Below, in pieces: positions 2,481 through 25,600 of a DNA stretch of 37,101 nt. A program made the position numbers and the translations under genes. Origin of the DNA: Fragilaria crotonensis (Eukaryota; Bacillariophyta; Fragilariophyceae; Fragilariales; Fragilariaceae); NCBI GenBank assembly GCA_022925895.1, contig JAKSYS010000623.1, positions 1 through 37,101 on the forward strand, written 5' to 3'. The notes below the pieces were generated by a model. That model was not told where the DNA came from and made no database searches. It saw only the letters and a list, made by a program, of their open reading frames with translations. Within the stretch, counting starts at the first letter, position 1, and every line of letters starts with the position of its first letter.

Positions 2481-3935
2481 ATGAGCAACACCGAACCATC
2501 CGACACAATTCAACCATCGAACAAAAATAAACCCTTTTCGGATCAGGACCAAAAGAAGAACGAAGTGACTAACTCGAGGATGGCGGTTCTCCCCATTCCC
2601 GAACCCACTAACCGCGCACACCCTTTTTCTGGGAGTGGAAGGGAAATGCCTCCCGGTAATTTTTCCTGTTTGGGGGCACAGACAGACGTTTGCGTACACC
2701 CCACAAATGACACATCAAGTGCTATTAGCCACCACGTCCCAAACCACATCAGAACAAACTTGGCAGCAGCACCTCCTACGCCCACTGGTTCAACAGCTCA
2801 GCAGGGATGTTCTACTATGGGCCTGCCATCAGCCACGAGTACGACCGAAAGTGACACAAGTCAAATATTGATGGACGTGAAGCAGCCGTCGGCTCTTGAC
2901 GAATCAATTGAAGTAATGTCAATCGGAGACCATGGCAACGAGAGCGACTGCAATATCCCTTCGGGCGCACCAGATTCAGGTCGCACAGAGCGAACGGTTG
3001 ATGATCAGTCGGTGAGTTCTTCCAATGGAGGATCGCGAAAACGCCGTGACAAGTCACGAGGCGACCAAACGGCTGGTCGATGGACCCCGGAAGAGCACCA
3101 AGACTTCCTTGAAGGTCTCAAGATCTTTGGACGCGAATGGAAGAAGGTTGCCGAGAGAATTCCAACCAGAACCTCCGCGCAGATTCGATCTCATGCTCAA
3201 AAATACTTCGCAAAACTGGCGAGAGACGAGTCGACTATTTTGCATGATCAGGCAACAGCTGCAGCTATGGTAGCTAGTCGCCAGCAGCCCTCTATCGAGC
3301 ATGAGGTCGTTCCACAGAAGGCTACAGTGTTGTCGGAGTCTGTGCAACGAAACGTAAAACGTATCCTTGCTGATCCTAGCAGCTTAGAAAAGGAAGTCGA
3401 AGATACCCTCAACGCGTTGCGTGAGCGTTACAAGCAGCTCCAAATACGTTTGGAAGAGGCGAACCGACGACGCCATTCTGGCAGGACACAATCCCCACAG
3501 CGAAGTCACGTTGTTGAAAACGAAGACAACCACCTACCTGACATTCCGAGACAACCCAGACCAATCCTCGACAGTAGGAAGCGCACTTTTGAAGAGTGGA
3601 CTGATCGACCTGCGCAACGACACTCCTACGAGGACATGTCGTCCGTCTCATCTGCTTGTTTTTCACCAACCAGGGAACTGGTTGACGAAGAACTTATTGC
3701 CCTCTCCGTGCTTGGCGGCTCCCTTTCCCGCAGTACTAGCCAGCAGGAGCTACCACAGGCTGCCTCGTCTGATGAAAGCAGCCGCGAAGATGCCCTGCGC
3801 CAAGCTCAGAATGCCTCCCCGACCTCAAGCATCGGTAGCCACCGTGCGCGAGAGGATGATTTGGACGACAGGTCCGATCAAGCCAAAAAACTCAAACTCT
3901 CTGACGAAGAAACCGAAACCACCACTAACGAATGA
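2481..3935 (+). CDS. SHAQKYF-class single-repeat Myb transcription factor
   Basis: This single-exon gene encodes 484 residues. One Myb/SANT repeat lies at about residues 199-250. It begins GRWTPEEH, has the spaced tryptophans of the family (RWTPEE, REWKKVA) and ends with the diagnostic SHAQKYF motif in the third helix. Family knowledge: SHAQKYF (CCA1/REVEILLE-like) Myb proteins bind DNA through this repeat and act as nuclear transcription factors in plants and stramenopiles. A basic stretch (KRRDKSRG) just before the repeat is a likely nuclear localisation signal. A short charged helix (about residues 305-335, LRERYKQLQIRLEEA) could be a coiled coil. The rest is Ser/Gln/acidic and probably disordered. 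The ATG at 2481 is the first in frame and gives an uninterrupted frame. It converges with the membrane protein gene downstream. Target genes cannot be inferred. Confidence 0.9.
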   Translation: MSNTEPSDTIQPSNKNKPFSDQDQKKNEVTNSRMAVLPIPEPTNRAHPFSGSGREMPPGNFSCLGAQTDVCVHPTNDTSSAISHHVPNHIRTNLAAAPPTPTGSTAQQGCSTMGLPSATSTTESDTSQILMDVKQPSALDESIEVMSIGDHGNESDCNIPSGAPDSGRTERTVDDQSVSSSNGGSRKRRDKSRGDQTAGRWTPEEHQDFLEGLKIFGREWKKVAERIPTRTSAQIRSHAQKYFAKLARDESTILHDQATAAAMVASRQQPSIEHEVVPQKATVLSESVQRNVKRILADPSSLEKEVEDTLNALRERYKQLQIRLEEANRRRHSGRTQSPQRSHVVENEDNHLPDIPRQPRPILDSRKRTFEEWTDRPAQRHSYEDMSSVSSACFSPTRELVDEELIALSVLGGSLSRSTSQQELPQAASSDESSREDALRQAQNASPTSSIGSHRAREDDLDDRSDQAKKLKLSDEETETTTNE

Positions 3936-4364: not shown

Positions 4365-7300
4365 TTAAACACTTTTACCACTATCAGCACTGCCTTCATC
4401 TGAATCTTGCTTTTCTAATTCGCCCTTGGCTTCCGCTGATTTCAGTGCTGACAAACTTCTCGCAATGGCCCAATCTGCAGCTTCGCTCGCCGCAGCGTCT
4501 GAAAATGTGCAAGGAAGGTGAGTTGAAAAGGTAAGGGAAAAAATCATCGCAATCCAAATTTCACATACCTGTCGAGCCTTCAAGTTTGCTCTGCTGCGCA
4601 ATTTCCATCCATAGATCCGCTTGCGCGAGCGCATCTTGTTCTTCCCGAAGTCGTTTCTCCTTTTCTGCCGCGGCGATGCCTTCCGGGGTACTGGGATCTC
4701 CTACTCCACGAGTAGGGCTATCTCGAGCGGGCGGACTGACCTCCGTGGTTCCAAATCGACTTGCAGCTGCCACGACACCCGTCCAATCACCTCGATCAAT
4801 CATTTCATCAAGTTCAGCAGCACGTTCTGCGTTGGCTTGAGAATGTTCAGAAATACTACCATCACCTGCAGCAAACCTGTTGATTTCTCCGGTTGAGGCA
4901 CTGTTCACGCTTGCGTCACTCATCATTGCAGCTGCCTCACCAACTGCCTCCCAATCCCCGGCTTCAATTGCAAGCTCTAACGCTGTTCGTCGTTTCGCTA
5001 GATAGCTCGTCCACTTCATCATCATCACCAGATGAAATTGGTGACCCGTCGAGTTTTGAGCCTGATTCTCCAAGGATCGACGGCACCGAGGTGGGACTGG
5101 CAAAGAAACTCTCGGAAGCGTCTGAGCTTGAACCTGACGCTGAGGAAGCATGGTCAGAATCGTCTTGTTGTGACGACCCTATTCCTACGGCAGCGGCAAT
5201 TCCAGCAGCTGCGGCTACCCCTACACCGACACCAGCAGCGGCAGCTGCGCTTATTCCTCCTGTGAAACCCCCACTGCTTGTAGCCGGAGCAGCCGCTGCC
5301 GCAGATGCCGTTGGTGGAACTGGGAGCGAAATACCTCCTTCATTCGCTGCTCGCCGAGCATCGCGCTTGGCTTGCTTTTGGCCTTGAACGCGAGCTTTTT
5401 GAGCCACTAGCCTTTCTTGCATTGTACGCAATGTCTCAACAAGTTCTTCTTCCCTGCCCTTGAATTGCAGCATCATTTCATCGACATTGTCAATCTCTTC
5501 GGGTACCACACGGCGAACAAGGTTTTCAACCTCCTCGCGAATTTCATCTCGCTTCGCAGTTTTACTAGGACTGTCACTCAGCGTTGTACTTGCGCCTGAA
5601 AACGCCGACGACCCTCCTCCGGTTCTTGACGTCTGGGAGGCAGACGACTTCGAAGCGGATTGATCTTCGGCTGACTCAAATTTAGCGGCGGCAACCACCA
5701 CCCCTCCCAATCACCAGCGTCAACCAAGTGATCAAGCTCAGCTGCACGCGCTGCATCAAGGGAAGAGATGGAAGATCCTCCGCGCGACATGCTAGTTCTG
5801 CTTCTTGAAGACACTGACTGTGAATCGGAGGCAGCAGCAAGCAACGCGGCGGTGGCGCCGACGGCAGCCCAGTCACCTGCTTCAATAGCCAAGTCAAGGT
5901 CCCTACGTGTCACCTCGGGCACGACAGGCACGCCACTGTCGACGAAAAAGTGAAATGTTAGCCATGCATAACGCCAACAATGAAATAGCAAACCAAGACT
6001 TACGTGGCATCCTTGCTTCCACTGGTGGCGGCAAGCGCACTGGCAGCACCAATCGCAGCCAGACTTGATCCTGTCACCTCGTCCATCCCGTCGATGCTCT
6101 CAGAGTTGAGCGTGGAATTCCCAACGCTTGATGACCATCCACTGGAACCAGCATTGGACGACGAATCGGCGCCCTTCTCGTCTTGCGGTACAGCATTATC
6201 CGCTATCTCTCCTTCCACCAAGGCAGCAGCAGATGCCTTGCTCTTCACCCGGTAGTCGGCCTGGCCAGCACCCAATGTTCCGTCTCCTCCAAGATCTCCC
6301 TCCACATCTTGCGCAGCAGACAAAGTTTGCGAGGCAGTAATTGCCCCTGGGAAGTATGTGTCGCCACCCTCCTTGTTTTCGTCGCGACGGCGCTTCAACA
6401 ACAGCGCTGCACCAACAAGGATACCAACCCCAGCCAACGCACCAATTACTATACCAATTGTTTGGCCCGAGCTCAAACTGCCGGTAGCAGCCTCGGTTGG
6501 CGACGGAGTCGGCGGAACAGCGAGGCCCGTGACTATGAACACATTGCTATTCGCGTCGACAGAATCCAAGCTTCCCTGTAACCGTCCTTCCAAAATGGCA
6601 AGATTCAATTGCGTGAGGAAATCCTGCTTAATAACCGTCGTATCATCCTCATCAACGATGTTCAATGTGATGGAATGTACAATGGTCTGACACGTATCTT
6701 TTGAATTCAAGTTGGAGGGGCATGCTGAATAAAGAAAGCAACAGGTTAGACCTCAGGCAAACTCATACCACACAAGTACACCGGAGTATATCATAATTGT
6801 CACTCACCCTTGGCAGGAAATCCACCCGTCACTTTGGTGGATTCCACACTTACGGTCAATCGTCTCCGCTGCGCAATGAGACGACGCCCGCGAGGATCGG
6901 GAAAAGTTTCGGCAGCGACTTGACTCGCCAAGACATCCATGGCGGCATTCAAGTCCGCGTCCGCACCCGCAGAATTTCCCATTCGATACGCCACCTCGTA
7001 CTCAACAACTACGGGAAATACCACATTCGACGGAGAAGCCGAGGCGGTTGTTGGCGCCGTCGGTACCGCCGGAGCAGTTGGTGCCGTAGTCGAAGACGGT
7101 GCAACAGGAGGACCAGTGGGTACGGTACTCACGGGGAAAAATGAAATCGGTGGAATAAATGTTGGTCCGAAACTTATTGGCACGGCAGTGACTGGCAAGG
7201 CAGTCGGTGGAGAGCTGATAGGCTGCATCGTTGTAGGTGATAACGAAGCCGGCTGCAAAGTCGTTGGTGGTACGGTAGTCGGTTTGGTTGTTGTTGGTGA

Positions 7301-8077
7301 CGACGTAACGGGCGGCACCCTTGTTGGTGACGACGTAACGGGCGGCACCGTTGTTGGTGACGACGTAACGGGCGGCACCGTTGTTGGTGGTGATGTGATG
7401 GGCTGTACCGTTGTTGGTGGCGATGTAATGGGCTGTACCGTTGTTGGGGACAAAGTAATGGGCTGCGCCGTTGTTGGGGACAAAGAAACTGGTGTGCTTG
7501 TCGACGGAGCAGGGGTTGTCGGTGACAAACTTGTTGGCGATTTCGAGGGAACAGAGGTGGGCAAGGCCGGAGAGGACGGTGCCACGGTGGTCGGAGAGGA
7601 TGTTCCAATAGTTCGGTCGATCGCATTTATGGTGGTGAGACACACCGAACGTAGGTAAACCTCCTGGTCAGGATCGGGGGTCTCTTCTGGTCCCGTACCT
7701 TCATTGTTGATATGGGCATTGTCTCCGATACAACATTGTTGGTCGGTCTGATTAATTGTACAAAGGCATGCCAGTAAGTTGAAAGACAGTCGAAGAGTCC
7801 TGGAAAGGTCTTCTATTGAGGTTGCATTTTCTGCAAATCCGTCAGGGCCAAGAGCTTGAACCACAGTCACGTATTCAGTACCGTCAATTTTCCGGTCTCC
7901 GTTTGCATCAGCGTCATACAACGCGGCATAGCATTTGTCAAGATCCTCATCACTGATATAACTATTTCTCTGACCAAGTCGCGCAGTTATTTCTTCTGAC
8001 AAATAACTTCCCTGAGACAGATTGAGCAAGCAACAGAGAAAAATCAAAAGCCTGACATAACCTCGTGAGACAATCAT
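4365..8077 (-). CDS. Secreted/single-pass membrane protein with EF-hand loop, PTS-rich stalk and cytoplasmic GDW repeats
   Basis: Four exons are inferred, all with GT-AG borders in phase: 8077-6808, 6724-6004, 5935-4569, 4498-4365 (introns of 83, 68 and 70 nt). Together they give about 1,163 residues. The N-terminus is a signal peptide (LLIFLCCLLNLSQG). An EF-hand-like loop follows (DANGDRKIDGTE; position 6 is Arg rather than Gly). Next is a long Pro/Thr/Ser stalk built on a decapeptide repeat (PPVTSSPTTV type), then a cysteine-containing globular region spanning exons 1-2. A transmembrane helix (IGIVIGALAGVGILVGAALLL) is followed by basic residues (KRRRDE). The cytoplasmic tail has two paired repeats, an AIEAGDWxAVG unit followed by a D.GDWxGVV unit, separated by a charged coiled-coil-like segment. 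Two compensating single-base frame breaks in exon 3 (near 5700 and near 4990-5010) interrupt the frame as assembled. I do not recognise the family; a surface or wall-linked receptor-like role is only a guess. Confidence 0.75.
7291..7500 (-). repeat. In-frame 30-bp minisatellite coding the Pro/Thr/Ser stalk
   Basis: Seven consecutive 30-bp units (starts 7291, 7321, 7351, 7381, 7411, 7441, 7471) lie inside exon 1 of the membrane protein gene. On the minus strand each codes ten residues of the VPPVTSSPTT type. Units 1-3 are almost identical; later units diverge. The period is a multiple of three, so copy-number change keeps the frame. The product resembles mucin-like O-glycosylated stalks. Confidence 0.9.
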
Positions 8078-9954
8078 CTTCAGTCGTTTTCAAAGCGGCA
8101 GGAGCAGGATTCGGCTTGTGATGAAGTACTACGTTGCTCGAATATTCTGTGGGTTGCTGTGCTCACGGCACTGCTGGTGTGTGGCAAAATCAGATTTGTG
8201 AGTTGGCCATCGGCCTGTTGAAAAATTCATCACCGGAAAGCCTCACTCGACGAAAGTTTCAACGTTGGAGAAAAATTTGGATCGAGACCCCCGCCAGGCG
8301 CAGTGGGATGCTTACCTAGTGAAAAATGAGGCTTTTCTCTCAATCTACACACCGACAGACACGAGTCAACGCGAACGATTGTTCGTCCTATACAATAAGA
8401 GTAACAACAGGAGTGGCCCAGGCAAGCACCTTCAAATGAGATTCTGATTTTTGTTTGCGACCTTGCGAGGCGTGATGAGGGACTCGGGCAAACGAACCTG
8501 ATGCGAGAGTGAGAACCCCTGCGTGCCCTTGTCCTATGAATACCGAAGTAGGGGTCGTTGCTCGTTGCTCCACAGCGTGTTCTCCAGTTGCATTTCGTAT
8601 GATAGAGGCGACTCTGGACTGTATACAGGGAGCCTGCGTAGCTCCCTACTTATTTCAAGTTACGAAATATTGGTATGGACAAAATTCAGCTAATTGGAAC
8701 TGGCCCGCAATCTACAACGGAAAGAAGGTATTTGAGCATATACCGTCTTAATAAGGCACGGTATATAAATATATCGATGGCACACAGGTTCAAATTTTGA
8801 ATGTCATGACGTGTCGTCGGCAGCGTTCTACGTGCTTTTTACTTTTTTAACAGAACTGCTGTGTGCAAAAGACAAATCCAACTGAAATGCGTTTCACCTG
8901 AAAGTCTCTGCACCCCCCCTTACCCCCCACACCCCAACCCCTGTCTGACCTTCCTGTTATGAGTCGTGAGTTACCCTCCCCCAAGCTGTGTGACTCCCCT
9001 TCCCTTTCGAATGCACAAACTGTCGGATTTAACCGTCAAGCAACACTCATTCGACTGGTTGAATCGCGACATCTCGATCCGTGCGTTCTATCCCGGGTGC
9101 AACGCAGGATTCATAACCAACCAAATCCCGGATTGCGAACGTATGCTGTGTGCCATACTTGAGAGGGGAGAGCTAAGGTGAAATCTCCTGTAGACATGGA
9201 ATTCTTTCCAATCTTGCATCGTTTGCTCGCTCCAGAAGTCTTACAATACGTAGCAGGGGTGTCATCCACGTTAGTTTGGGTCTTGTCTAGTAGGGAGCAC
9301 GTTCAAGGTAGTTAGTATTTCACATGTTATGTCTAATCTACTACCCATCCTGGCGCATTGCCTAGAAGTCGGCTGGCTGGTTGCAAACGCGCGTTGTTGT
9401 CGTGAGAGGTGTTCGCTACTACTGTCGTAGTGGTAACAACTAAAACGTATGCGAGAGCTCAGTTATAGCAGTGCTATAGCATGACTAATGAGGAGGTAAT
9501 TTCCCTAGTTGCAAACACCCTTAGAACCTATAGCAGTATGAGCAGGATCGTAATTGCCTCAAGTCGCTCAAGAGTTTTGCTGCTTCGTACCAAGAGCCTA
9601 CCTTCCAGCAACCGAACTATCGCCTTCTAATAAGCCCTAGTTCAAACTCCCTTCTGGATCTTTAACATGCGCTGTGTGTCCCGGATAATCATTGCGACGT
9701 GGTCGACACCGTATTGTGTGCAATCATCGAAGCTCAGTCCGTGGAGTCGAAAACTAAGCAGTGCAGTCAGACTTTGTCAATGCATGTCAGTAGCAATATG
9801 ACGAACATGTTGCCCCTCTACAGAGTGATCTTGGGTCGACAGATCCAGGATCCACGAGAAACGTGAACCGCTCCGTTTCTGAGAAATTCTCTAGAATTTG
9901 AATTTTGAAGCTAATGGCGAGTACTGTAGTTGTTTTGTAATGTGATCTCGCTTT
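8078..9954. other. Gene-free spacer
   Basis: About 1.9 kb separates the membrane protein gene from the kinase-phosphatase gene. Both are on the minus strand, so the left part should hold the promoter of the former and the right part the 3' UTR of the latter. Short open frames here carry no recognisable domain. A C-rich tract lies at 8913-8941 (listed separately). A small palindrome around TATAGCAGTGCTATA occurs near 9464-9478. No tRNA or other RNA gene was recognised. Confidence 0.6.
8913..8941 (-). other. Potential G-quadruplex tract
   Basis: Four C-runs on the plus strand (8913-8919, 8923-8928, 8932-8935, 8938-8941) are separated by 2-3 bases. The minus strand therefore has four G-runs of 4-7 bases with very short loops, a textbook intramolecular G-quadruplex pattern. 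Any function is unknown. Confidence 0.7.
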
Positions 9955-12557
9955 CTATTCCAGGTAGATTAGGACAACACTAACATTGTCTGTCGATCCA
10001 CTTTGAACAGCCTTGGAACACAGTTGTTTCGCGGCGTCACTGGCATCCATGCCGTCTCGCCGCATCCTGGTCACGTCTTTAGCAACTTCCTCGTTCCCAC
10101 TGACTTCCCAAAGTCCATCCGAAGCTATCAACACTACTCCTGGAATGGGGCGGAGACTGGTCACATCTGGGGTACTCACTATTCCTTTGGAGGTGGCGGA
10201 GGGTCCTTCGAGAGACCGCGCAACTGCGTATTGCATGTCACCACATTGCAGCCACCACTTGGAAAGAGAGCATTCTGGAAGGGAGTAGTCAAGCCCATGT
10301 TCCTTCCCCCGTTTCAAACGGGCTGCTTCTGTTTCAGGTGAATGATCAGTTGTCTCGAATACAACTCCACCATCAGTGTCAATGAGTAGTGTCCTCGAGT
10401 CCCCACAATTTAGGACTGTCAGTTCGTTCTCATTCAACGCCACAACAGATGCTGTTGTTCCAGCAATGAGGTCTTCAGAACCAGTGCTAGCCAGCAGAAC
10501 CCCATCTTGAGCATCATATTCTGCGACGCATTCTCCCATTTCATCGCAGGCGTTGCGGTACGAATCGCAAGTGTTCTGCCATGCAAGGTCAAGCGCTTGT
10601 CTAGAAGTGATTGCTCCTTTTGTCATGTGTTCTGTAAACAGCGATGGCATCAGCTGAGATGCGCTCTGAGCAGCGGCCTTCCTCCGTGTCCATCAAAGAC
10701 ACCAGCGATGAGCATGTCTTTGTCCAGCTGTATGTCATGAAGGACAAAGAAATCTTCGTTCGCTCGCCGCCTTCCAAGAGACGACCAGGCGCCTTCGTCA
10801 ACAATTCGCACTGGCGATGAGATTGCGTCGTTGGGCGGTTCAGGACGGCGACGAACTGACCGTCGGTCAAATTGCAATTTGATAAAATTGTTTGACTTTG
10901 GAGCTCCTTGTATCATCGCAACAACTTTCTCGAATCCGCCATCGCCCACTGGAACATCACCAACAGCCTGCAACTGATCTCCAATTTCAAAGACTCCGAT
11001 ATTATCGGCTTGACTTCCTGCGACGATATCCATGACGAAGACATCACCCAGGTTCGCATCCTTTGTTGCTTCATTCCATTTCAACAGCTTGTCACCGTCC
11101 AGCTCCACGTCTCCAGCTTCCGATAGAACTAATCCCAATGGCTCACCTCGACGGAAGCTTGCCGCAAAGTGTAGCGGGCGCGGAGCAACAAAGTCCATGT
11201 CTGGCTCCTCCACGTGACATTGGTCCAGGGCTCGCAAGACCGATTCAAAGAATAGACCATCATCATGAGCGCTACCTTCGAGCTGCTTGTTCTCCAAAAT
11301 CTGGTTTGCCTTCACTAATGCTTCACCCGACGAGATTCGTTGTTCAGGATCTGCCCGAAACATGCTGCGCAAGAGCCCCCACAAACCTGGTCGTTGTTCC
11401 AAGTAATCAAGGGCATCCTCGAACCCGGCTGGTCGTACCTTGGACGATAATTCCCGCGACAACCACGCGTCCAAATCATAATTTGCATCCTGAATTTGTT
11501 GATGAAACGCTGCATCGGTCCGAATATCAAGATAGTTGAACAGGACCTGACAAAATATGAGCGCAGCGCTAAAGACGTCAAACGCAAATGGCGCTCGGTC
11601 CGGTTTGACAAACAATTCTGGTGCGGCGTAAATGGGAGAAATTGCAACGCTGTCGTCCTCCAAGCCGATTCGTCGCTTCCCAAAGGAAAATGGATTTCCC
11701 GAGGAGGACGACGATGACAACGACGACGATACTGGGTCCATGTCGGCGGCAGATCCAAAATCAATCAAGACCAAGGAACGGTGCGTTGCTGAAACGAGCA
11801 GATTGGCAGGTTTCAAATCGCGATGGACAATGCCTTGGGAGTGAATAAACGAAATGGCTTCCAGCAAGGATATCAATACGACATCCAGAGTATCCACCTC
11901 TGTCGCATCTGCAGTGTCCAACCCGAGTGCTTCTCGGAGTCGATGTAAGGGAGCATGATGAGACTGTTCTTGTTCTGCGGGTTCTTGTCCTTGTCGCCGT
12001 TGTTGTCGGTGCTGTTCTTGCCAATCAAACTCCATGACTTGTTCCAGTGTCGGTGCTGGTTTTCCGTCCGCACCCGTTAGCAATGAAAATGTCATCCATA
12101 CATGTTCACCAGCATCATCCGGAAATGTACCAATATAGTTGGAAAGGTGTTTTGGCGACTGCTTCATCTTTCGAAAGCAGTGCTCTTCCACGTGAAAGTA
12201 GTGCACGCATCGGTCGGACGAGCGGGTGGAGGATATCTTTGCCAATTCTTCCTTGGTCCAGGGTCTTTTGCATATTAGACTTTGGTCTGTCGAAGACGAC
12301 GATGATGATGCCAAATGAACCGTGCCATAGGATCCGCTTCCCACGCGATCACCAATCTGTACAGATGTTATAATCGTCAATGGCGACGACGCTGTTGATG
12401 ATGCTGCAGACGATGATGCAGCAGCATGAAATAAACGACGATCGGATCGGAATGTTGGTAATTGTTGCGGCCGGTGTGTGATGGAAAAGGAAGATACGTA
12501 TGAAAGGTGTAAGTGGATACTGACAATGATTAAGCCCAGTCGTAGTGTGTGTGCCAT
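9955..12557 (-). CDS. Protein kinase-PDZ-PP2C phosphatase fusion protein, probably plastid- or secretory-targeted
   Basis: Single exon, about 867 residues after allowing one frame break. The frame is open to 12644, but the ATG at 12557 is preferred because it directly starts a signal peptide (MAHTLRLGLIIVSIHLHL) ending in VSSF, which resembles a diatom plastid presequence cleavage site. The kinase domain shows a Gly-rich loop (GSGSYGTV), HRDLKPANLL, DFGSA and an APE motif (YAAPELF). A PDZ-like domain follows (PLGLVL ... GVFEIGDQLQAVG). The C-terminus is PP2C: RRANEDFF, VFDGHGG, AGTTASVV, CGDSRTLL, TTDHSP, ASDGLWE and STDNVSVV. The metal-binding acidic residues of PP2C are all present. A single-base deletion-type frame break falls right after VFDGHGG (10676-10684, GGAGGAAGGCC on the minus strand). 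One extra A there restores the expected continuation K-A-A-A. Substrates are unknown. Opposing kinase and phosphatase activities in one chain suggest a self-contained signalling switch. Confidence 0.85.
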
Positions 12558-12985
12558 GGTTGTCTGTGTGAATGTCAACGTGAGCTGTGAATGACAATTG
12601 TTGACTTCGATGAATCCTGCTCCGGTCGACTCGATAACTTTCAATTAGTTGGAACTTGTAGCAGTTGCTGGAGGCTGGAGGTATCCAGACAATGGAAAAA
12701 TTCAAAGGTTGTGTGTATCAGCAATCAGCAATCAAGCATCGCATTGAGAATTGTGACTGCAGATTTGGTGAACGTATCCATCTGTCCGTGTGATGCCGAA
12801 ATGATGGAAGTCAAGTTGAAGATCGTTGATGGTGTGCAGGTGTGTTCTTGGTTCTTGTTTTGTTCTTTCGATGTCAAGAGTCATAAGGTCAAGTACTAGC
12901 TACGTACCGTATTTCTTAATTAGTGTACTGGAGTACGAGTGCTACTTGTATTACTAGCTTCGAATGCAGTGCAAGGGTGCAAAGA
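12558..12985. other. Spacer between kinase gene start and the transposon
   Basis: This should contain the promoter and 5' UTR of the minus-strand kinase-phosphatase gene. A GTACTGGAGTAC palindrome occurs at 12925-12936. No gene was seen. Confidence 0.55.
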
Positions 12986-19529: not shown

Positions 19530-19871
19530 ATGGGTGACAATCGCTACACACGTCCCGCTCGTCATTCGTACAACACCAAGTCCAACAAGGTCCGCGCGAC
19601 GCGTACTCCTGGTGGCAAATTGACGGCCGGAAAGATCCACAAGACTACCAAGGGCCCCAAGTGTTCTGATTGCAAAATGTCCCTTCCCGGCATTAAGCAC
19701 CTCAAAAAGGCTGTCTACCCTAATTTGAAAAAGAGGGAGCGAACTGTATCCCGGGCCTACGGAGGCAGCTGCTGCGCCGGATGCCTCAAACAACGCATCG
19801 TTAGAGCCTTTTTGCTGGAGGAACAGAAGGCTGTCAAGAAGGTGTTGGCAGAACGTCAGGGAAAGAAATAG
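19530..19871 (+). CDS. RPL34: Cytosolic 60S ribosomal protein eL34
   Basis: Single exon, 113 residues, matching the family length. It begins MGDNRYTRPARHSYNTKSN and has the RxxRTPGGKL segment. Its zinc-ribbon cysteines are visible as KCSDCK and GSCCAGCLKQRI, followed by the conserved RIVRAFLLEEQ. eL34 is a structural protein of the large cytosolic ribosomal subunit. The gene is divergent from eL36 and ends only 103 bp before the stop codon of the opposite-strand MLO-like gene. Confidence 0.96.
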   Translation: MGDNRYTRPARHSYNTKSNKVRATRTPGGKLTAGKIHKTTKGPKCSDCKMSLPGIKHLKKAVYPNLKKRERTVSRAYGGSCCAGCLKQRIVRAFLLEEQKAVKKVLAERQGKK

Positions 19872-19974: not shown

Positions 19975-22394
19975 TCAACGCAACGATCGTAGCGCCTTTG
20001 GATGATACTTGTGGAGCAAATGCGCAAACTCATGTTGGGAGATCGTGCCGCTGTTGTCCATGTCTAACTCATTCACGATCGCGCTGATCTCATTAACGGT
20101 AAATCCTACCTTCAGTGAGTCGAGCTTGTCCTTGAATTCTGCAATCGTAATATCACCAGTGTTGTCCGAGTCGAAGATTCCGAACAGAAGATGCGCTCGC
20201 TCCATTTCCGACAAATTGTCATCTCCAGCATTTTTGGCATACCACTCGATGAACTCTTCCTTCGACACACCTCCACTATCATCCTCGTCCAGCCTCTTAA
20301 CCAACTGTGACAAGCCTTCATCGGACACCCCCGAACCCAGGTGCCGCATAAGCCTTTCAAACTCCTCACGCGCAATAGTTCCGCATCCCTCATGGTCCAA
20401 TAAATCAAATGCCTTGGCCACCTCTCGCCGTTCTGCCTCACTCAATGGCCGAATTCCTGCTGGATGGCCGCCGTGCCGTTGGTGTTGTTGGTCACGTCCC
20501 GTGCTCCTTGTTGCAGCCGACTTACGCCTACCACCACCGCTCCCGCGCATTAGAATCAAAAACGTTCCAACCGCACGGGCTGTCTTTTCTTCTCGCAACA
20601 CACGATCCACCACATTGGGACGACGATGAGCTCCCATGCAGCAAACTTGAGACAAGACGGCAACCGTGTGCTTTTTGGTCAAGAGGATTGACAGAAAGGG
20701 GTATCCGGCCAAGAGAACGTAGGTCAAAAACACAGGAGGCGATGTACTGGTATGATACATGTGTTGGAAGAAGCTCAGAAAGTTCATGGCAGCATAGATT
20801 CCAAGGAACAACAAGTTGGCCTGAAGGATGTGTAAATACAACCACGGACCACGTCGGTCAAGCCAGTAAATTGCGTGCTGCCGATTGGCCTCCTCCTCCT
20901 GCCAGAACTCTGGCCAACCATGATCGATTTTGGTGATAATCATCGATATCAATGTCGGACCATTGAGGAAGAGTTTGGTTATCAGCGATGTTGTTGCTGC
21001 TAACAATCGAATTAAGGTAGGTGGTCTCGAGAGGAGTGAGTAACGAACCATCATTCTCCTTGGTGTTGTCAACCTTGGTACTGAGATATAGTTCCTTTCT
21101 GAGAAACATCCTTCTGACCTGAATCAGGTGACGTTCGAAGAAGACGTGGAACGCATATACCATCCAACCTACTGCAACCCACGACCAAGCCAAGGTCTAC
21201 CGGAAAGGGTTGTGTCAGTTTCTTCGCTCAATCACTCAATGATCGAATCATCACAAGCAAGGGGCGACGTACCGTAACATTCCCATTGACAGCAATCACG
21301 AAAAAGAAGTAAATGACAGTAAGAAATCCGAAGAAAGTCCATGTAATGATACTGACTTCAACAACATGAGCCAACAGACTTCCTTGGTTAATCCCCAAGT
21401 ATCGACCAAAATTGAAATCGTCAACAACCCTAATTTCTTCCGGTGCCGGGTGGAAGGGATAGTGGGGACTGCGTTCCAACAAAAATTCATTACGCAGTGC
21501 TTGAAAGAGGAGAAAATCTTCTTTCCGTTGTGCCGTCCCATTGCGAAAGCAGGGCAAGAGCCCGACGAAATCTCCAAACGGTCGAATTCGTGGCTCGGAA
21601 TTCTGGGACAATTTGTCACCATGGGTTCGTTGATTCGTATTCTCAGTATCCCTGGCTGCTTGGTCCATATCCAGCCACTCTTGCTCTGTCTCCATGGCAG
21701 CCGCCACAAGCACCAGAACTTGTAGGACAAAGGATATCATGATGAAAAAGATGGTAAAGTGGACAAATTCGAAAATCTCCAACAGTTCGTTGTCTTCTCC
21801 AAACAATTTTTCGCTCAGCACCGTGAACCAACCAGCCTGAGTAATGCAAAAGGTCACGACAGAAAGGAATCCGAGGACAGTCATTTCTCCAAACAACTTG
21901 TCCACGAGTGGTCTCAAGTTGCGTGTCGCGTGCTCTTCCAGATGTTCCTTGCTGAATTCAAAGACAATTGTCAAGACAATGAGCAGCAAGACGATGCATG
22001 TGACCGTAGCGTCGCTGATTTCCTATTTTGAGTGTATTAAACGAAGCAAGTAGGTGTGAATTGCAGGGTGAGTAAGGCACGTTTTAAGGGTGGTAAGAAG
22101 TGTGTACGACAGACTCCATTGATTTTGTGTTGCTCATTTTTGTTTTTAGCACGATGAGCAGAAAGAGTGACCCTACGCACGTACCGACGAACTACCATGG
22201 TCTCCTGTTTCCTTCGTATCAACATCGTTGCTAGTATCCTCCAGCCTTCTACTAGTCGCAATGTTCTCCACCGATGGATGGCCTTTGCCCGACAATGTAC
22301 CAAGGATATATCCGGAGATTCCAATTAGCAGATATTGGACCAGTATGGTGCGTCGTTTTCCTTGGGGGGAAGTGTAGGCGAGGCGATCATTCAT
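19975..22394 (-). CDS. MLO-like multi-pass membrane protein with C-terminal four-EF-hand module
   Basis: Three exons are inferred: 22394-22185, 22022-21273 and 21196-19975 (introns of 162 and 76 nt, both phase 0), about 726 residues. After an N-terminal hydrophobic segment (LVQYLLIGISGYILGTL) comes an MLO-type order of helices. LLLIVLTIVFEFSKEHLEEH and the following EMTVLGFLSVVTF match the 'EH.....ELM.LGFISLLLT' region. A DFNFGRYL segment corresponds to the family's conserved 'DF..Y' stretch. The last helices are followed by HTVAVLSQVCCMG, which resembles 'Y.LV.QMG'. The final ~150 residues hold four EF-hand loops (DHEGCGTIAREE, DEDDSGGVSKEE, DSDNTGDITIAE, DMDNSGTISQHE); loop 1 is non-canonical. 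Plant MLO proteins bind calmodulin near this point; here a calmodulin-like module is built in. Exon 3 has one extra base: a frame change in the GGAGGAGGAGG run (20889-20901) joins the two reading frames. MLO assignment is by pattern only. Confidence 0.78.
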
Positions 22395-23025: not shown

Positions 23026-23835
23026 ATGTCTCTCGCCCGCCGTAGCCGTTTGTCCACAAAGCGCAAGTTCGTCGCGGACGGAGTATTCTACTCCGAACTC
23101 AACGAGTTGTTGACCCGTGAATTGGCCGAAGATGGCTATGCTGGAGTTGAAGTCCGCACCACGCCCCACCGTACCGAAATCATCATCCGGGCCACCCGCA
23201 CCCAAAGCGTCTTGGGTGAGAAGGGACAGCGCATCCGCGAACTCACCTCGGTTGTGCAGAAGCGTTTCGACTTTGCCGACGGTGCCGTCGAACTCTACGC
23301 CGAACGCGTCCAGAACAGAGGACTCTGCGCCCAGGCCCAGGCAGAATCCCTCAAATTCAAGCTCTTGGGAGGACTCGCCGTTCGTCGTGCTTGCTATGGT
23401 GTCGTGCGTTTCGTCATGGAGGCATCTGCCAAGGGATGTGAAGTTGTCGTTTCCGGTAAGCTGCGTGGACAGCGTGCCAAGGCTATGAAGTTTGGTGACG
23501 GTTACATGATCAAGACTGGTCACGCTGGTCAGGTCTACACCGATACCGCCGTCCGTCACGTCATGATGAGACAGGGTGTCGTCGGAATTAAGGTGCAAAT
23601 CATGCTCCCACACGATCCCAAGGGAGTCATCGGACCTAAGATCCCTCTCGATGATGTTGTTGTTATTTTGGAACCGAAGGAAGAGATTGACCCAGCCGCC
23701 TTGTTGGCTCGACAACAGGCTGCTGCGGCCGCTGCCCTTGCAGCGGCCGCCCAGGTTCCATTGATGCCTGCTCCTCTGGATGCCCCAGTGGCTGAAGATG
23801 CAGCTGAAGACCCCAACGTCGCTGCTGGATTTTAA
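23026..23835 (+). CDS. RPS3: Cytosolic 40S ribosomal protein uS3
   Basis: Single coding exon, 269 residues. The N-terminal region [21 protein letters not shown] and a type-2 KH domain with the GxxG-type loop [11 protein letters not shown] are visible. The conserved core follows ([42 protein letters not shown] type), including [14 protein letters not shown] and the C-terminal [16 protein letters not shown]. The tail is alanine-rich. uS3 lines the mRNA entry channel of the small subunit. It converges with the Sel1-repeat gene, with 151 bp between stop codons. Confidence 0.97.
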
Positions 23836-23986: not shown

Positions 23987-25243
23987 TTAAGTCTCTGATG
24001 GATGCTCCTCCGCTTCATGGGGCTCTTCTCGACTCTCCGACACGACACTCTTTCGTCGCTCCAAAATCACGGGGTTGCGAGTTCCACCCCCAATTGTGTA
24101 CTGTTTCTCCAATGTCACAAGACGCTTCAAATCTTCTTCCGTCCACTTCTTCTCCTCGGGCACGACATCCGTAGCTCGTCGTTGGAACGATTGTCGGCTC
24201 CCATCCGTAAACACCCCACTCTCATCCGCCGTGTTTTCCAAAACAGCCAACACTCTCGACCTCGCCCCGCGATGTCCCATTTCACCCGCCGCCACAAGCC
24301 ATTCCAACGCTTCTGCCCGATCCCGAATCACGCCCACTCCATCCAAAAGGCAATCTCCCAACATGTACGCCGCGGCCGCATGTCCCAGGGACGCGGCCCT
24401 TTCAAAGTATTCCACTGCTTTTCCCTCTTGTTCCGGCACACCACCCTCTCCTGTATACAAGGCAACTCCCATTTCATAACATGCTTGAGCATGATTGCCA
24501 GATCCGGCAGCACGTTGGAACCACACGAGTGCCTTGACGGGATCGGGATCAATGTCGGCCGTGCCTTCACGAAAAATAATGCCAAGCATGCACTGGGCAT
24601 CGGAATGTCCTGCGAGTGCAAGTTCTTGCAGCGATCGGAGGGCGCGACGAGAATCAGAATGATCCAATGTGGATGAATCAGTATTTGTGGGCGAACTATT
24701 CATGTAGTAGACTGCAATTCGGAATTGCAAGTCGTCGCGGTATTTGCCTGGAGCGGCGTATTTCAAATCATATTCCAAGATTTTGACTTGTTCCGGAGTG
24801 GTGGGGACGGCCTTGGGCCAGGGGTTGAAGGAAGTTGGAGTTGACGTGGAACGATTGACACTACCAGTGCCGTTGCCGCCATTGCTGTTTGTGTCGGGAA
24901 CGTACTCCCATTTCGAGCGATATTCGTCCAACAAGGAACGGTGAAAGGCCAGGGATTGTTCGTATCGGGCGGGCTCGGAAAAGTCGTCATGATCCGAGTC
25001 TTCTTGTTCAGGAGCACTGCAAGTCGAGGTCGGGAGACTGGTGTACAGGAGAGATGTTGTTCTGTGATTCGAATCGGATTTCGGAAGGTATCTTCGGTTA
25101 TGCTTGTCGGAAGACAACGACCAAAGGGTGTATCCCGCAGCTGCTGCTGCTGTTACAGATGCAACAATTGGAGGATTCGTAGAGGAGAGCCGCTGCTGCG
25201 CCCCCAGAAAGCTTCGAAGGGATATTCGGTGCATGCGGTACAT
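23987..25243 (-). CDS. Sel1-repeat protein with N-terminal membrane/organelle-targeting segment
   Basis: Single exon, 418 residues. The N-terminus is basic and serine-rich without acidic residues (MYRMHRISLRSFLGAQQRLSS), followed by a hydrophobic stretch (PIVASVTAAAAAGYTLWSL); this fits a mitochondrial presequence plus membrane anchor. Three tandem Sel1-like repeats lie at about residues 215-330. Their pattern is clear: ALVWFQRAAGSGNHAQACYEMG, AVEYFERAASLGHAAAAYMLG, and ALEWLVAAGEMGHRGARS. The repeats form alpha-alpha superhelices that act as protein-interaction scaffolds. The C-terminal ~80 residues are charged and polar. The partner is unknown. The promoter should lie in the 1.26-kb spacer shared with the plastid gene at 26502. 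Confidence 0.85.
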   Translation of the reverse strand: MYRMHRISLRSFLGAQQRLSSTNPPIVASVTAAAAAGYTLWSLSSDKHNRRYLPKSDSNHRTTSLLYTSLPTSTCSAPEQEDSDHDDFSEPARYEQSLAFHRSLLDEYRSKWEYVPDTNSNGGNGTGSVNRSTSTPTSFNPWPKAVPTTPEQVKILEYDLKYAAPGKYRDDLQFRIAVYYMNSSPTNTDSSTLDHSDSRRALRSLQELALAGHSDAQCMLGIIFREGTADIDPDPVKALVWFQRAAGSGNHAQACYEMGVALYTGEGGVPEQEGKAVEYFERAASLGHAAAAYMLGDCLLDGVGVIRDRAEALEWLVAAGEMGHRGARSRVLAVLENTADESGVFTDGSRQSFQRRATDVVPEEKKWTEEDLKRLVTLEKQYTIGGGTRNPVILERRKSVVSESREEPHEAEEHPSET

Positions 25244-25600
25244 TCTGAACTCTGAACTTATTCGAAGAACTCGGACGACTGATACCGGCGAAAAGAAAGA
25301 AGAGATCTTTATGATACGTTACGGTATCGTGTTCTTGTGATCAATACTGTTCCCTGTCAAGGCTGAAGGCCGTACTCGAATTGTGCAGATAGCTGAGAGT
25401 AGTGCTTGCACTCTCTAACTCCTTGGACCTCTGCGTCAAAGTATCGATGATACAAGTTATGGATGTTCCTTATTGCTGATCCGTATGATGTATGATGTTG
25501 TTCACGGATCAGTTCTCTCCGTGACATGCGTAGAGAGAAGGGGAAATGTGTAGATGCATCGAGTTGATGGGTGAAAAGGAAGAAGAGGATGTCGAATGGG

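Follow-up and report, generated by a model that had tools for sequence, protein, structure and literature searches.

Plant MLO proteins have been reported to be Ca2+ channels (PMC9810639), and they carry a C-terminal calmodulin-binding domain (PMC13360292). Conserved features of these proteins are described as including four extracellular or luminal cysteines and the C-terminal calmodulin-binding domain, with its crucial tryptophan (PMC13418360). A 2026 paper that cites Kusch et al. 2016 confines the family to plants and certain algae (PMC13360292). In the calcium-dependent protein kinases (CDPKs or CPKs), an effector is linked through a junction segment to a calmodulin-like domain within one chain (PMC5354511).

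Here we describe a gene from the diatom Fragilaria crotonensis whose predicted product, like a CDPK, tethers a calmodulin-like domain to an effector; unlike in a CDPK, the effector is a seven-transmembrane (7TM) protein rather than a kinase. The gene lies in the window, by which we mean the whole stretch of DNA that was analyzed (37,101 nucleotides, contig C584). We lean toward the view that it encodes a divergent MLO-like 7TM protein that may be a Ca2+ channel and that carries a complete calmodulin-like domain, which would act on the segment just after the seventh transmembrane helix (TM7).

The gene, its second copy, and its paralog

This is a real gene, located on the minus strand at 22394-19975 (ATG at 22394-22392 and stop codon at 19977-19975), with three exons and two GT..AG introns (162 and 76 bases). 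The predicted product of about 727 residues has a hydrophobic segment near its N-terminus, then seven predicted transmembrane (TM) helices, and finally a tail with four EF-hands, of which three have canonical loops. (The 727-residue reading uses the exons from the window, with exon 3 taken from the haplotig C9, which is described below.) All of the gene's features are on the minus strand. Exon 1 (22185-22394), which was identified from its translation, a GT donor, and hydropathy, contains the start codon and a hydrophobic segment at residues 16-34 that may be a signal peptide or an anchor; the N-terminus is presumed to be luminal. Intron 1 (22023-22184) is identical in haplotig C9. Exon 2 (21273-22022) is a 250-codon open frame that encodes TM1-TM4 and a presumed second cytosolic loop of ~107 amino acids. 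After intron 2 (21197-21272), exon 3 (19975-21196) encodes TM5, the presumed third cytosolic loop, TM6, TM7, the post-TM7 segment, the EF-hand domain, and the stop codon.

The hydropathy of the window protein shows the N-terminal stretch and then seven peaks within residues 75-494. TM1 (residues 74-95; 21948-22013) and TM3 (residues 159-180; 21693-21758) were placed by hydropathy and by alignment to plant MLO proteins, and TM2 (residues 113-133; 21834-21896) by the alignment. TM4 (residues 288-314; 21291-21371), TM5 (residues 321-342; 21131-21196), and TM7 (residues 474-495; 20674-20739) were placed by hydropathy and by comparing the loops. TM6 (residues 439-461; 20776-20844) comes after YWLDRRGP; the plant FW-x-x-[RK]-P stretch aligns to this sequence if a gap of two residues is allowed. 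These boundaries, as well as those of HvMLO (a plant MLO that we used for comparison), were set partly by hand, and a stricter automatic count gives six peaks for both the window protein and its paralog. Overall, the window protein has seven peaks after the N-terminal one and its basic residues are mostly on the inside loops, which is the pattern of a 7TM protein with a cytosolic C-terminus. From this topology, we infer that the N-terminus is luminal or extracellular and that the C-terminus is cytosolic.

If read literally, the window copy does not encode a single polypeptide: exon 3 opens in one frame, and the part from TM6 to the fourth EF-hand is in another. Alignment to haplotig C9 places a two-base frame break at 20890-20902 (near 20893), inside a short repeat where the exact base is ambiguous. 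The haplotig (C9:20200-22950) contains a second copy of the gene, which is colinear and nearly identical over the aligned part. It has the two extra bases near 20893, and its exon 3 is one frame of 407 codons plus the stop codon. The haplotig also has breaks of its own: it is one base short in exon 2 and has an extra C in the C run of exon 1. In the window itself, TM6, TM7, and all four EF-hands are within one 305-codon open stretch from 20892, so the last two helices are joined to the EF-hands without any correction.

The two-base break in the window copy, together with the haplotig's own single-base breaks (exons 1 and 2), might mean that the copy in the window represents a pseudogene or a truncated allele and does not give rise to the fusion protein. 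We consider this very improbable. The sites of the breaks differ between the two haplotigs. Furthermore, only 22 of 723 compared codons differ between the copies (9 synonymous and 13 non-synonymous), and three frame-breaking indels alongside so few differences would be implausible for real alleles. Assembly errors are therefore the likelier explanation for the frame breaks, rather than a dead gene. The paralog, which likewise needs two frame joins, also points to assembly error.

This paralog was found by searching the genome (62.1 Mb in 881 contigs) with the exons of the window gene. (Of the 61 light-harvesting matches listed for this genome, the strongest has its closest PDB counterparts in the fucoxanthin-chlorophyll proteins FCPI-7 and Lhcr11, whose structures are from a diatom.) It has the same layout and is located at C306:48340-50360, and we joined its sequence over two apparent frame breaks. 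It is 55% and 36% identical to the window gene over two membrane stretches and 40% identical from TM6 to the fourth EF-hand, and it has one extra hydrophobic peak at residues 267-285 (eight peaks versus seven). Because the layout is the same in the paralog, the fusion is older than that duplication. At the level of the sequence, the fusion, the topology pattern, and a similarly built paralog are established. Among the best candidates from the searches with the window exons, the membrane part had no match elsewhere in the genome; the other matches were to EF-hand and linker residues alone. The original prediction had placed the EF-hands after the position of the plant calmodulin site and in one polypeptide. 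That order holds in the gene, in the haplotig, and in the paralog, but the claim of a single polypeptide does not hold for the window copy as assembled, whose frame is broken near 20893.

The calmodulin-like tail

Using Pfam and the EF-hand loop pattern, we located the loops of EF-hands 1 to 4 at 20362-20397, 20254-20289, 20137-20172, and 20029-20064, respectively (all on the minus strand). In the 727-residue reading, they start at residues 588, 624, 663, and 699, for a spacing of 36, 39, and 36. EF-hands 2, 3, and 4 are canonical, and EF-hand 1, which has a cysteine at loop position 5, does not fit the canonical pattern. The expectation from the first look at the sequence, that the tail would have four EF-hands and that three would be canonical, was borne out: the canonical loop pattern occurs three times in the tail, as compared to 0.008 times per shuffled sequence (2000 shuffles), and the translation of the window itself matches Pfam's EF-hand_7 at 76.2 bits.

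Sequence matches in the PDB that extend over all four hands include centrin (71.1 bits) and calmodulin (68.6 bits), and the best PDB match for the tail is a calmodulin-calcineurin construct (73.9 bits). The two pairs of EF-hands in the tail are colinear with calmodulin according to Pfam, the PDB alignment, and the loop pattern. Like calmodulin and centrin, the tail has four EF-hands in two pairs, with similarity over the whole domain; unlike in those proteins, the domain is covalently attached and the first EF-hand is non-canonical. The three canonical loops only suggest that the tail binds Ca2+. In the paralog, the strict loop pattern fits EF-hand 4 only; by eye, EF-hand 2 is near-canonical and EF-hands 1 and 3 are degenerate.

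Resemblance of the membrane part to plant MLO proteins

We compared the two diatom proteins to three plant MLO proteins (HvMLO, AtMLO1, and AtMLO2; Pfam PF03094), all of which score on Pfam's Mlo family. The plant and diatom proteins share seven TM helices and the N-out/C-in pattern. Three of the loops have lengths in the window protein and the paralog that are similar to those in HvMLO: TM3-4 (107 and 109 residues versus 100), TM4-5 (6 and 6 versus 7), and TM6-7 (12 and 11 versus 17). The other three loops differ: TM1-2 (17 and 17 versus 25), TM2-3 (25 and 28 versus 47), and TM5-6 (96 and 85 versus 36). The diatom and plant proteins also have a series of colinear motifs in common: E-x3-[LV]-GF-x-S (in TM2), [LV]H-x-x-IF (at the start of TM3), W, LR-x-x-F, F-x-[KR]-Y, VV-x-[IV], [YF]W, and [MV]G[SA]. 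The E-x-T that follows [MV]G[SA] is common to the diatom proteins and HvMLO only. The outside loops of both diatom paralogs have no cysteines, versus 3 + 1 luminal cysteines in HvMLO. As compared to plant MLOs, the diatom proteins also have the extra N-terminal hydrophobic segment and have the EF-hand domain in the same chain.

The post-TM7 segment (residues 506-540; 20539-20643) aligns with the calmodulin-binding region of the plant proteins. Where the three plant MLOs have the tryptophan of the calmodulin site, both diatom paralogs have phenylalanine. This segment retains [MV]G[SA] and a pair of hydrophobic residues three apart, which are V..F in the diatom proteins and L..W in all three plant MLOs. 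Its hydrophobic moment reaches 0.47 (in 18-residue windows), as compared to 0.44 for HvMLO.

A search with the MLO family profile had been proposed as the check on an MLO-like identity, and it gave no significant match. Given a cut-off of 24 bits, Pfam's Mlo scored 8.6 bits on the N-terminal 409 residues of the window protein, 12.8 bits on exon 2 (where the match falls on TM1-TM2), and 7.7 bits on the joined 568-residue part. A Pfam scan of the paralog gave no match to Mlo, and HvMLO, as a control, scored 695 bits. Comparisons of diatom to plant MLO profiles with hhalign, which used shallow profiles of two and three sequences, gave probabilities of <1%. Searching the whole genome with Pfam's Mlo and with HvMLO found nothing and missed even these two genes, so it is not sensitive enough to exclude further MLO genes. 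Viral contigs that were scanned with two diatom profiles and the plant MLO profile contained no relative (with two short peptide patterns per scan), and neither did prokaryote contigs in one profile scan (with two short peptide patterns).

The negative results from Pfam and hhalign would be expected if the membrane part belonged to a diatom-specific 7TM family that is unrelated to MLO and shares its topology by chance, with EF-hands that serve some other Ca2+-dependent function. For exon 2 by itself, Mlo is outscored by Yip1 (20.0 bits) and Ctr (15.3 bits), although both are under their own cut-offs. The missing luminal cysteines and the three of six loops that differ in length also favor an unrelated family, as does the lack of a relative of the diatom profile in the PDB, where the one match was to a MtN3/saliva protein (10.7 bits, E = 1.1). 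(HvMLO, searched with 452 residues, had no match in the PDB at E up to 1.) Nevertheless, we think that an unrelated family is unlikely. When the joined membrane part is scanned with Pfam, Mlo ranks first and Yip1 and Ctr do not appear. The three loops of matching length and the colinear motifs also argue for a relationship to MLO, and so do alignments that were controlled with shuffles and decoys.

For these alignments, we used column shuffles that preserve local hydropathy. When the two diatom proteins were aligned globally, as a profile, to the three plant MLOs, none of 400 shuffles reached the actual score in any of nine settings (z = 3.7-5.6), and in a rerun, none of 1500 shuffles did (z = 4.25). 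Single global alignments gave z = 2.84 for the window protein (2 of 400 shuffles reached its score) and z = 3.38 for the paralog (1 of 400). As decoys, we used 23 polytopic proteins from E. coli K-12 (open reading frames of 350-560 amino acids with at least six hydrophobic peaks, from five 49-kb stretches, taken irrespective of annotation). In the same alignment, all 23 of the decoys had z of at most 1.99. The raw scores were 122 for the window protein and 132 for the paralog, versus 63 for the best decoy, but the means for the diatom proteins' own shuffles were already 74 and 70. The bacterial decoys differ in composition, with shuffle means of 22-34 for the four best. Because the raw excess of the diatom proteins comes partly from composition, z is the fair measure, rather than the raw score.

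Other kinds of alignment were less informative. Simple pairwise alignments to plant MLO were weak (z = 1.6-3.2), and some shuffles beat the real score. A semi-global profile alignment collapsed to overlaps at the ends, with a score of 5.0 that was reached by 85 to 135 of 150 shuffles across three settings, and was replaced by the global alignment.

Overall, the membrane part's similarity to plant MLO over the 7TM core goes beyond shared hydropathy, as judged by shuffles and decoys, though hhalign was negative. The proposal that the membrane part is MLO-like is partly supported by these sequence comparisons: it agrees with the controlled global alignment and with the pattern of some of the loops, and it does not agree with Pfam's Mlo and hhalign.

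Possible function and neighboring genes

If it functions like plant MLOs, the diatom MLO-like protein would conduct or control the entry of Ca2+. A rise in cytosolic Ca2+ would then load the tethered EF-hands with Ca2+, and the loaded EF-hands would clamp residues about 506-540, beside TM7, which would change the activity of the membrane part. Such autoregulation seems the likeliest mechanism and would be a built-in feedback that operates without free calmodulin, as in the CDPKs. We infer Ca2+ binding, docking of the tail, and channel function, as well as, from the topology, the cytosolic side of the tail. The original prediction also allowed that such a tethered sensor might be an ancestral or alternative way of regulating MLO in ochrophytes.

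It is also conceivable, but rather unlikely, that the protein is a true relative of MLO but that its MLO part is not the target of the EF-hand tail. Instead, the tail might serve other proteins as a docking site or relay, or it might buffer Ca2+ at the membrane. Consistent with such a role, a linker of 55 residues lies between position 533 and the first EF-hand loop and is divergent between the paralogs, and EF-hand 1 is non-canonical in both of them. A single-sequence structure model of the C-terminal exon had a mean pLDDT of 53.0, which is too low for docking to be assessed. However, neither paralog has lost the fusion, and both EF-hand lobes persist next to the stretch that aligns with the plant calmodulin site, which is itself retained. 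We continue to prefer a tail that would act on the post-TM7 segment.

More broadly, we tentatively suggest that diatoms may have a class of self-sensing MLO-type Ca2+ channels, with calmodulin built in beside a retained binding segment, as the channel counterpart of CDPKs; we regard this generalization as possible but doubtful. Plant MLOs bind separate calmodulins, and in a one-chain version, the ratio of sensor to target would be fixed at 1:1. With the one-chain version, a single construct should suffice to test how Ca2+ sensing affects an MLO-like protein. If this is correct, a candidate Ca2+ pathway would be added to those of diatoms. Kusch et al. 2016 reportedly described MLO-like proteins outside of plants (in algae and chromalveolates), as well as several MLO fusion proteins. 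Among the matches listed in our literature search, no MLO/EF-hand fusion was apparent from the title or the start of the abstract, and the fusion may already be published. In a 2024 survey of the Ca2+ channel families of diatoms, MLO does not occur in the main text (PMC11085791).

The window contains several other genes. Those for the ribosomal proteins L34e (19530-19868, plus strand) and S3 (23026-23832, plus strand) flank the gene at 22394-19975. A Sel1-repeat protein (94.9 bits, with three repeats above the threshold) is encoded at 23990-25315 (minus strand). At 9955-12644 (minus strand), a protein kinase domain (78.6 bits) shares one frame with a PDZ-like stretch, whose 24.3 bits fall narrowly short of the cut-off, and an overlapping frame encodes most of a PP2C phosphatase (78.7 bits). 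By eye, the kinase/PDZ frame ends in the start of the PP2C domain, and this may be a kinase-PDZ-phosphatase fusion with an intron or a frame break. The protein encoded at 6803-8086 (minus strand) has low-complexity repeats that are rich in Ser, Thr, and Pro and looks like a cell-surface or wall protein (Extensin_1 scores 26.2 bits, versus a cut-off of 105). Finally, the protein encoded at 2481-3932 (plus strand) has a single Myb-like domain (55.2 bits) and is likely a transcription factor; it contains a SHAQKYF motif.
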